A DNA stretch of 45,901 bases from an uncultured bacterium (GTDB lineage Bacteria > Cyanobacteriota > Vampirovibrionia > Gastranaerophilales > Gastranaerophilaceae). Below, in pieces: positions 37,950-45,452 of this stretch; position 1 is the stretch's first letter, and each line of letters opens with the position of its first letter. The notes beneath the pieces were generated by a model, which was not told the DNA's origin, ran no database searches, and was given only the letters and a program-made list of their open reading frames with translations. Position numbers and translations under genes: made by a program. Location: NCBI GenBank assembly GCA_948433295.1, contig CAOJDT010000007.1, positions 1-45,901 of the forward strand. Direction: 5' to 3'.

Positions 37950-38600
37950 TTAAAATTTAATCGGATAATTGTCAGGTATTTTCCAGTTATGATACTGAAT
38001 CAGTGCAGTACAAAAATCTGATTGTCTACCATTGTAGGATATATTTTTATTACATCCTATCCAGCCATTGTACAAGTCTTCTTCCGTACCGTTCCAATCA
38101 TATTTGTATGATTCAAAGCCCCGATTTTGATGGTATTTATTTTTTGAAGACAGGTCATTAGGCGCAAACCTGAAAGAAAATACATCCTTGCCTAAGAGTA
38201 AAGTTGTTTTATTCTGTTTGTATTTTTTGTAATCAATAAAAAAATTATAATCGCGACCCTGTCTGTAGGATTTCAATACAGATCCGTCTGCAAAATATAT
38301 TAATATTCCGTCATCTTCACTTTCGCCCAGTTCTTCAATTCCTGTTACTTTAAGATAATTTTTGTAATATTTATTATAAAATTCTATTGGTCTTAAGGTC
38401 ATTGGCCAGTATTTTGCATCTCCGTTATCAACCTCTGACAATTTTATAGCCTGATTCATAACAGAATAAACGCGTTTTAATTTAGTTTCAATAACCTGTT
38501 TTTGATAGTTACCGATTAATACAGGCATTGTCATTGCTGCAACAATACCGATAATGCCTAAGGTGATTAAAACTTCAGCTAAAGTAAAGGCTTTTTTCAT
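37950..38600 (-). CDS. Pseudopilin-like protein (copy C), downstream of poly-G cassette 1
   Basis: 216 residues from ATG 38600, which has GGAGG four bases upstream. Leader MKKA then FTLAEVLITLGIIGIVAAMT; the residue before Phe is Ala rather than Gly, still acceptable to some prepilin peptidases. It ends FCTALIQYHNWKIPDNYPIKF, closely matching copy D. The reading frame stays open upstream for 60 more codons into the G9 run of cassette 1; with 8 or 11 G the cassette ATG (38781) would be in frame and give a 276-residue protein. It also has its own promoter (38629-38657), so expression need not depend on the cassette. Confidence 0.88.
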   Translation of the reverse strand: MKKAFTLAEVLITLGIIGIVAAMTMPVLIGNYQKQVIETKLKRVYSVMNQAIKLSEVDNGDAKYWPMTLRPIEFYNKYYKNYLKVTGIEELGESEDDGILIYFADGSVLKSYRQGRDYNFFIDYKKYKQNKTTLLLGKDVFSFRFAPNDLSSKNKYHQNRGFESYKYDWNGTEEDLYNGWIGCNKNISYNGRQSDFCTALIQYHNWKIPDNYPIKF

Positions 38601-38628
38601 ACATCCTCCAAATTCTATACTATTTTTT

Positions 38629-38657
38629 ATTATAACATGTCGCAACAACACTGTCAT
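38629..38657 (-). promoter_or_regulatory. Promoter of pseudopilin C with -35 in a palindrome
   Basis: On the reverse strand: -35 ATGACA (38657-38652), exact 17-bp spacer, -10 TATAAT (38634-38629), then GGAGG and ATG 38600. The -35 box is part of one arm of the long palindrome at 38647-38684, which could be the operator of a regulator. Confidence 0.6.
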
Positions 38658-38684
38658 CGTGACAATAGTCACAATGACAGTGTT
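38647..38684. repeat. Long palindrome between cassette 1 and pseudopilin C
   Basis: Arms of 17 bases around AATA: AACACTGTCATCGTGAC and GTCACAATGACAGTGTT, one mismatch. It is wholly within the open upstream frame of pseudopilin C and covers its -35 box. It may be an operator or an inserted palindromic element; the GTCATTG start on the reverse strand resembles the flank of the element in rsmE. Confidence 0.7.
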
Positions 38685-38727
38685 AAAAAATATAGTGTCT
38701 AAAACGCCTTCAGCAGGCGGTTTTCGC

Positions 38728-38781
38728 CTAGAGAAGCCCCCCCCCTTTTTTAAGTTTTGAAGCTATAAGTGACGTTTTCAT
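38728..38781 (-). CDS. Cassette 1: 17-residue ORF ending in a G9 tract
   Basis: Reverse-strand ORF MKTSLIASKLKKGGGLL, from ATG 38781 to TAG. It has AGAGG upstream and a strong promoter, so it should be translated. Its glycines are coded by nine consecutive G. Loss of one G (or gain of two) removes the stop and joins this start to pseudopilin C. As it stands it is either an OFF-phase leader or a genuine 17-residue peptide; it differs only in the last residue from cassette 2. Confidence 0.6.
   Translation of the reverse strand: MKTSLIASKLKKGGGLL
38735..38781 (-). repeat. 47-bp cassette repeat, copy 1 (contains G9 run)
   Basis: Identical over 47 bp to 45359-45405. It runs from the ATG through twelve codons to the G9 tract (plus-strand C9 at 38737-38745) and two more bases. 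Identity stops immediately on both sides, although both copies have an equivalent promoter and ribosome site upstream. Confidence 0.95.
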
Positions 38782-38798
38782 AAATTTCCTCTTTAACT

Positions 38799-38827
38799 AT
38801 TATAACTTTATTTTAAAATTTTTGCAA
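38799..38827 (-). promoter_or_regulatory. Promoter of cassette 1
   Basis: Reverse strand: -35 TTGCAA (38827-38822), 17-bp spacer, -10 TATAAT (38804-38799), 17 bases before ATG 38781, with AGAGG between. The predicted start falls at the ribosome site, giving a leader of only about 11 nt. Same geometry as cassette 2. Confidence 0.8.
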
Positions 38828-42492: not shown

Positions 42493-42753
42493 AAAAGCCG
42501 TGCGTTCTGTCTATCGAATCAGACAGATAACACTTACGATTAAAATATCTCTTTCCAAAATCAAAACACCCGCAAGGATTGCCTTAGTGCTGCTGTGTTT
42601 CCACCCTGACACGGTTCGACAGCTTACGCCGCTCTGACCTTGAACGTCAACGATAATTTAATTTTCAATATTATCCGCCAAACCCTCACGACAGGCTCTG
42701 CACCCCGCATAAACTTCGGGTCAAGAGATTGCAATTCCCCGTGGAGCACGGCT
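42491..42753 (-). ncRNA. ffs: Signal recognition particle RNA, large type
   Basis: The reverse strand has the SRP domain-IV signature: GTGTCAGG, GT-GGAA-AC, then ACAGCAGCACTAAGG (plus strand 42586-42614). The 5' end GCCGTGC (42752-42746) pairs with the 3' GCACGGC (42503-42497), which is followed by six T acting as terminator. The span of about 257 nt matches the long bacterial form with an Alu domain rather than the 4.5S form. The helix next to the GGAA tetraloop is closed by G-U/A-C pairs instead of the usual C-rich pairs. It binds Ffh for membrane protein targeting. Confidence 0.88.
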
Positions 42754-44585: not shown

Positions 44586-45245
44586 TTAATAAATTATCTT
44601 ATGAGGATAATCTTTGGGAATTTTCCAGTTGTGCAGTTGTATCAGTGTAGTACAGAAATATCGCTTCTGGGTTTCTTGAGTAAAACATTTTGACTTTGCT
44701 TCGTCAATAGTTCCGTTCCATGCGTATTTCCAAGGTTCAAAACCTTTATTATACAGATATGACCAGTCAGAGTGAGCGCATCGTGGACAGAGTTGAAAAG
44801 AAAATCTGCAAACCCCTTCGATTTTTGTTCCGTTTTGTTCATATTGCCTGCATCTTTTTGAACCATTCGGATAAAAATACCAGTCACGCGTGTTGCCCGG
44901 TTTACTTTGTAAAGAACTTCCGTCAGGGAAATCAACGTAAAAATATTCGTTTGAGGTAGGTCTTATTTCTACAATTTTCAAATTTGGCGCGAGATATTTT
45001 TTGAACCACTCTAACTGAGGCTCACCACCGGGAATATCTTCCCACCAGATTTTTTTGTCTCCATATTCAACTTCCGCGAGCATTACAGCTTGATTTATTG
45101 CAGAATAGAATTTTTTTAAACGTGTTTCAACTACCTGTTTACGATGATGTTGAATCAGCGCAGGCATGGTCATTGCTGCTACAATCCCAATAATACCTAA
45201 AGTAATTAAAACTTCGGCTAAAGTAAAACCGTGTGTTCGGGTCAA
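44586..45245 (-). CDS. Pseudopilin-like protein (copy D), dependent on poly-G cassette 2
   Basis: 219 residues counted from the TTG at 45245, an unlikely start: GGGGG touches the codon and there is no other in-frame ATG, GTG or TTG nearby. LTRTHG|FTLAEVLITLG is the processing site and helix; the end CTTLIQLHNWKIPKDYPHK matches copies B and C. The frame is open from the stop back through 53 codons to the G9 run of cassette 2. With 8 or 11 G, ATG 45405 would give a 272-residue protein with a 58-residue leader. As read here, the pilin appears out of phase (OFF) or is made only after slippage. Confidence 0.85.
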   Translation of the reverse strand: MTRTHGFTLAEVLITLGIIGIVAAMTMPALIQHHRKQVVETRLKKFYSAINQAVMLAEVEYGDKKIWWEDIPGGEPQLEWFKKYLAPNLKIVEIRPTSNEYFYVDFPDGSSLQSKPGNTRDWYFYPNGSKRCRQYEQNGTKIEGVCRFSFQLCPRCAHSDWSYLYNKGFEPWKYAWNGTIDEAKSKCFTQETQKRYFCTTLIQLHNWKIPKDYPHKIIY

Positions 45246-45320
45246 CCCCCAAAAAGCATTTCGCTTTAAAAACGCCTTTAAATTTCTCGTGCGATTTGTA
45301 ATTCTCGTGTTAAGTGATTT

Positions 45321-45351
45321 GTCAAAACTCGCTCCAGAGTAGTGTTTTGAC
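45321..45351. repeat. Inverted repeat just downstream of cassette 2
   Basis: GTCAAAAC (45321-45328), 15-nt spacer, GTTTTGAC (45344-45351), perfect. It lies within the open frame leading to pseudopilin D. It could form an mRNA hairpin right after the G tract, a position that might affect slippage. Confidence 0.6.
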
Positions 45352-45405
45352 TCAAACGAGCCCCCCCCCTTTTTTAAGTTTTGAAGCTATAAGTGACGTT
45401 TTCAT
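45352..45405 (-). CDS. Cassette 2: 17-residue ORF ending in a G9 tract
   Basis: Reverse-strand ORF MKTSLIASKLKKGGGLV, ATG 45405 to TGA, with a strong AAAGGAGG ribosome site and a promoter. Same first 16 residues as cassette 1. Nine G encode the glycines. It is one base out of frame with pseudopilin D, in the same sense as in cassette 1. Confidence 0.62.
   Translation of the reverse strand: MKTSLIASKLKKGGGLV
45359..45405 (-). repeat. 47-bp cassette repeat, copy 2 (contains G9 run)
   Basis: Identical to 38735-38781. The plus-strand C9 run is at 45361-45369. The two copies lie about 6.6 kb apart in the same orientation. Confidence 0.95.
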
Positions 45406-45423
45406 GTGTATACCTCCTTTATT

Positions 45424-45452
45424 ATTATAAACTTTTAGGGTGTGATTTGCAA
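45424..45452 (-). promoter_or_regulatory. Promoter of cassette 2 / pseudopilin D
   Basis: Reverse strand: -35 TTGCAA (45452-45447), exact 17-bp spacer, -10 TATAAT (45429-45424), 18 bases before ATG 45405, with GGAGG between. Same boxes and geometry as cassette 1 although the intervening sequence differs, which supports real function. Confidence 0.82.

Follow-up and report, generated by a model that had tools for sequence, protein, structure and literature searches.

Two copies of a short cassette lie on the reverse strand of the window, the 45,901-nucleotide stretch of DNA analysed here (contig C7 of a 1.96 Mb genome in 131 contigs), each in front of a type IV pilin-like gene. The 47 bases at 38735-38781 recur exactly at 45359-45405, as the initial annotation had reported, and the adjoining bases mismatch at both ends. 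On the reverse strand the repeat reads ATGAAAACGTCACTTATAGCTTCAAAACTTAAAAAA, nine G and CT. The elements described for each copy, namely a promoter-like TTGCAA-17-TATAAT, a ribosome site, an ATG, a leader of twelve codons and the G9 tract, are all present on this strand (Table 1). Both pilins match DUF6613 in Pfam and have an N_methyl-type start. The two cassette tracts are the only G/C runs of at least six in the 45.9 kb window, and runs of at least nine did not occur in 40 simulated windows of the same dinucleotide content. No known RNA family matched at the cassettes, the sole match in the window being a bacterial small SRP RNA (RF00169, 56.9 bits) at 42550-42645 on the reverse strand.

Table 1. 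Features of the two cassette loci (positions in the window)
Feature	Position	Strand	Basis
G9 tract, cassette copy 1	38737..38745	-	sequence
Leader copy 1, ATG and eleven more codons, MKTSLIASKLKK	38746..38781	-	sequence
Ribosome site AAAGAGG, copy 1	38788..38794	-	sequence
Promoter-like TTGCAA-17-TATAAT, copy 1	38799..38827 (TTGCAA 38822-38827, TATAAT 38799-38804)	-	consensus match only
Spacer copy 1, pilin frame open, 49 codons up to the FTLAEV motif	38589..38736	-	
Own ribosome site GGAGG (38605-38609) and ATG (38598-38600) of pilin 1, in the pilin frame	38598..38609	-	sequence; own-site score 5.5
Pilin 1, type IV pilin-like (N_methyl-like start, DUF6613), from its own ATG	37950..38600	-	
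G9 tract, cassette copy 2	45361..45369	-	sequence
Leader copy 2, same sequence as copy 1	45370..45405	-	
Ribosome site AAGGAGG, copy 2	45413..45419	-	sequence
Promoter-like TTGCAA-17-TATAAT, copy 2	45424..45452 (TTGCAA 45447-45452, TATAAT 45424-45429)	-	consensus match only
Spacer copy 2, pilin frame open, 44 codons up to the FTLAEV motif, without own ribosome site	45228..45360	-	own-site score 0
Pilin 2 (N_methyl, DUF6613); TTG at 45245 is a mechanical start without ribosome site	44586..45245	-	

As assembled, the peptide of either cassette copy terminates after 17 residues. The pilin frame is free of stops back to the G run at both loci and is opened by G8 or G11 instead of G9; removal of one G reproduces the fused frames of 276 (locus 1) and 272 (locus 2) residues that had been given at the outset, both with the FTLAEV motif inside. 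The accompanying argument that two independent loci are off by the same base falls away, because both loci carry copies of one module. A switch had been proposed for both window pilins, and this is retained for one of them. Locus 2 is a typical gated pilin in its predicted organisation and, of the two window loci, would be the only one to depend on the gate. Pilin 1 may not need the cassette since a GGAGG and an ATG belonging to the pilin itself lie in frame; it is possibly made without the cassette, and tract control of locus 1 is doubtful.

Similar cassettes are numerous in the same genome. In 402 kb there are seven runs of six G, none of seven or eight and 28 of at least nine, and nearly all of these 28 lie behind a ribosome site, an ATG or GTG and a short leader. 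Over 775 kb there are 35 cassettes, and of those that precede a long frame 24 have one G in excess, two are in frame and two are at -1. The leaders fall into unrelated families (MK.IDMT.FA, MKN.AILEKT, MKTSLIASKLKK, MKTQTMKGFPT, MSNAVISTIS and others), and the spacers, which range from 7 to 103 codons and in some cases contain dispersed repeats, are open in the pilin frame. At L013, L016 and L006 such repeats lie in frame between the G tract and the pilin and translate as STLTLKSDEARE, CHPELDSGS and VIAGLTRN.

Within the family, 101 of 288 genomes, from 22 of the 41 genera sampled, contained the pattern of a ribosome site and a G tract, which was essentially absent from the other families of the order. 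Leaders are wholly different between genera (MKNLFTR and MNNFLTR in G015, MNKIVSI in G021, K/R-rich in G048); those of G250 are short and variable and consist of whole codons before G9, and one cassette is common to G002 and Candidatus Scatousia excrementigallinarum, on the strength of which the window's genus is probably Candidatus Scatousia. Public species genomes were scanned for nine G shortly upstream of an FTLAEVL pilin. Among the matches listed, the informative names were Candidatus Gastranaerophilales, Melainabacteria, Scatousia, 'Cyanobacteria bacterium SIG30/SIG32' and 'Fusobacterium sp. CAG:439'; these are of Gastranaerophilales or Melainabacteria type, with SIG30/SIG32 and CAG:439 probably to be placed there too. 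The cassette-plus-pilin pattern had no match on viral contigs, some of which matched a looser pattern. Orthologous loci do not lend themselves to comparison across species, since identity to the nearest genomes is no more than about 66-75% in this region.

Stops in the fused frame of relatives, which the initial annotation had named as grounds for giving up the switch, are not the rule: of 195 pilin loci from 31 genome groups that lack a ribosome site of their own, 189 are open from the G run to the pilin. At loci that do have their own ribosome site, 18 of 31 spacers are closed by stops; at the other 13 the pilin has its own start and the frame is open. Of 258 open loci in a broader set, 181 lack any ATG, GTG or TTG in the pilin frame upstream of the motif, and about 394 stops would be expected if the spacers of this set were shuffled; because the set was defined as open, 189/195 is taken as the unbiased figure. 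From these reading frames the fused frame is predicted to be really used.

It could be argued instead that the cassette serves chiefly as a leader peptide or regulatory RNA unit, with the fused frame as a by-product and the pilins starting elsewhere. The frame as assembled usually stops 5-11 bases past the tract (in several genera the third frame, too, is closed within a few further bases), window locus 1 has its own start, and at about 18 loci, mostly in G003 and G012, the cassette keeps G11 and is separated by stops and a terminator-like hairpin from a pilin that has a ribosome site to itself. Most loci, however, have neither a start codon nor a ribosome site past the tract in the pilin frame and are stop-free all the same, and this explanation is considered improbable for the cassettes at large. 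The stand-alone cassettes of G003 and G012 (L120, L121, L123, L127 and similar), present in dozens of copies per genome, encode the leader MQKxxIDRIS and almost always carry G11. They have a conserved hairpin region with CCTCCG, which complements the ribosome site of the pilin that follows, and a terminator-like hairpin, GCCGTG...CACGG, after which comes the pilin with its own ribosome site. Such a cassette could be a leader peptide or a small RNA. Its G11 is found in nearly all copies with flanks diverged by 10-20%, and this constancy does not look like that of a hypermutable tract.

The other ground that the initial annotation had named was a fixed G count, in all reads and strains, that never unites the frames. 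Among assembled loci the number of G does differ, and leader and pilin are joined in frame at 26 of the 189 open loci against 63 expected (P about 7e-10 against one third), and 144 of the 163 closed loci have the majority sign of their own genome, where 106 were expected and 122 was the maximum in 20000 simulations; the loci share descent, so that P values on the offsets overstate their independence. In the window's genus 55 of 69 loci are at +1, 10 at -1 and four in frame, and the ratio of +1 to -1 is 6:2, 39:5 and 10:3 for in-frame length residues 0, 1 and 2. The opposite sign prevails in G250, G277, G197 and G048 (40 loci at -1 versus one at +1), and G083, G210 and G145 have mixed signs. 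The sign is kept over tract lengths of 9-13, and tracts are hardly ever shorter than nine. Loci with their own ribosome site and a closed spacer served as a control and are unbiased (-1:10, 0:5, +1:3), versus +1:56, -1:9 and 0:6 for open loci without their own site. The offset pattern is believed because three residue classes, unrelated leaders and several genera agree.

Several simple accounts of this pattern were rejected. Random phase variation with independent frames is dismissed for the window's genus by the offset counts in the three residue classes. A mutational equilibrium length is likewise dismissed, because tracts in this genus have the length required for the reading frame with one G added (9, 10, 11 or 12), and no length is favoured. 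Loss of mismatch repair was discarded as a cause, with MutS1 and MutL present in nearly all cassette genomes checked and mismatch-repair genes not separating the lineages. MutL was not found in G145 (96% complete genome), in which tract lengths are mixed.

The counts themselves could be wrong, if assembly or sequencing errors at G homopolymers concealed true lengths that are in frame. They come mostly from short-read MAGs with one genome per species, and lengths of G tracts from short reads are prone to error, so that assembled counts may err (PMC9187656). Yet MAGs that are named as a single series (BRZ_) have +1 in BRZ_GQ (G011) and -1 in BRZ_E (G048), the sign persists at lengths 9-13 and loci with their own start show no bias, which leaves error as a very improbable source of the offset.

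A serious rival to a heritable switch is programmed recoding, a non-heritable process in which the DNA length would be selected to be one base off and RNA polymerase or the ribosome would slip on the G run, with one G skipped or two added in the window's genus and the reverse in other genera. It stays serious because the near-constant offset of the window's genus is unlike the prediction of free switching, which is that closed alleles occupy both closed frames. Recoding accounts more directly for a selected, fixed offset than phase variation does. In its favour, the offset is nearly constant per lineage regardless of in-frame length, bias is confined to loci whose pilin has to be translated across the tract, and the tracts are hardly ever below nine. 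The site is conserved; the direction of the frame change hardly varies per lineage and is reversed from some lineages to others. The tRNA-Gly complement, UCC and GCC only, also agrees with it; no CCC was identified, although the anticodon of one tRNA gene was not read, and GGG may therefore be read by wobble in the window's genome. On the other side, the productive direction would need to differ between genera, lengths of 9-12 coexist within some genomes, non-pilin targets are frequently in frame and in-frame alleles of the same construct exist. Recoding is held to be possible, if rather unlikely. The same holds, on the unlikely side, for its broadest form, in which most of a large pilin family in an order of gut bacteria would be made only via a non-heritable slip at a poly-G of selected, fixed length that is always one base off, in a direction differing by genus. 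A tRNA-Gly CCC with an enlarged loop was also dismissed, no CCC tRNA having been identified; 41 tRNA genes were found in the window's genome (G000).

In some relatives tract length changes where the surrounding sequence hardly does. Among cassette pairs with at least 90% identical flanks, tracts are of equal length in 0 of 6 pairs in G083, 2 of 5 in SIG30 (SUTW) and 3 of 8 in G015, and near-identical cassettes of G083 have 9, 10, 11 and 12 G. The tract is more variable than the flanks among paralogous cassettes in these three genomes and in G210; this is not so in G003, G012 and G197.

Genes other than pilins also stand behind such tracts. Three tandem Acyl_transf_3 genes (L255:4857, 6060 and 7253) each have their own leader and G12, with offsets of +1, 0 and 0, and further targets are an RgpF-type rhamnan protein, a putative glycosyltransferase and a putative methyltransferase; in a GDP-mannose dehydratase/epimerase-like gene the tract lies within the gene's own glycine-rich start. 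By family name the surface-type products are the pilins (N_methyl, DUF6613), Acyl_transf_3 and RgpF. The non-pilin targets are often in frame and fit those typical of phase variation. At L161:1532 and L162:1525, tracts of G11 and G12 stand at the start of, respectively, a GDP-mannose dehydratase/epimerase-like gene and a gene for what may be a polysaccharide deacetylase (FDDGY motif); neither has a pilin-type leader, and both are one base off frame as assembled.

Classically, slipped-strand phase variation relies on a run of 9-13 G within the 5' region of a surface gene. At the level of sequence the cassettes conform to this design, with a homopolymer tract in the 5' coding part and a change of plus or minus one base that toggles full-length translation. 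It is proposed, with moderate confidence, that they are portable start modules at which heritable slipped-strand phase variation gates the translation of mostly pilins. The promoter, ribosome site, ATG and leader of about 6-15 codons would give rise to a default message that stops soon after the tract, and the gene behind it, usually type IV pilin-like, would sit one G out of frame until a one-base slip opens it, most often through a heritable change in tract length during replication. Prepilin peptidase would then cleave the N-terminal extension and leave the mature start F-T-L-A-E-V. Most cells would have a given pilin OFF and a minority would have it ON, and the population would sample a large pilin repertoire. 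Heritable phase variation is regarded as likeliest because the tracts of near-identical cassettes range from 9 to 12 G in some relatives and the same tract is carried by surface-sugar enzymes, and it is put first on account of the classical tract design, the fitting further targets and the pilus switch of Bifidobacterium breve. The one-sided offset and the few in-frame alleles speak against free switching, and to explain the near-fixed offset, rare open alleles and stable G11 phase variation has to be supplemented, for instance by slippage that is biased in direction and often passes through ON, or by strong selection for OFF. The shared contingency switch first suggested for the window therefore stands as a G-tract gate on a common pilin set far beyond two loci, whereas its simple form is at odds with these three features.

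In the literature searched, no paper was found on phase variation or G tracts in pilins of Gastranaerophilales or Melainabacteria. The cassettes would be the first described contingency system of the Gastranaerophilales (Melainabacteria), which are widespread and largely uncultured gut bacteria, and would rank among the largest known sets of homopolymer-gated pilins. They predict that most of the pilin repertoire is misannotated as truncated or late-starting genes and that single-base slippage decides pilus expression in the gut. The constant offset sharpens the question of whether the poly-G is a heritable switch or a per-molecule recoding site.

Slippage is not known to us from settings other than runs of A/T or short slippery sites, each in one gene. 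Homopolymer transcriptional slippage and programmed frameshifting (for example Shigella mxiE and dnaX; discussed in PMC3711429) resemble the cassettes in that a fixed, one-base-off frame is bridged at a homopolymer with constant offset. Unlike mxiE and dnaX, the tract here is G9-G13 and the sign differs between genera, and slippage is here a candidate only. To our knowledge, no single module of start, leader and tract has been copied in front of a gene family in Campylobacter jejuni or Neisseria meningitidis, nor is a near-constant offset known there. The poly-G phasomes of these species are alike in that G tracts of similar length lie towards the 5' end of surface genes, each genome has many such loci and glycan enzymes are among the targets (PMC11868660, PMC5084427). 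In the gut commensal B. breve, slippage between G11 and G12 near the start of pilin genes (bbr_0113, bbr_1889) switches sortase-dependent pili, and the in-frame length is enriched in mice (PMC9187656). There, too, two ORFs are joined only by a one-base change and the out-of-frame state is common (PMC9187656). The B. breve system comprises two loci of the Gram-positive sortase type, whereas here dozens of type IV pilin-like genes per genome stand behind cassettes that, unlike those of B. breve, form a shared, portable leader module with a uniform one-base offset.
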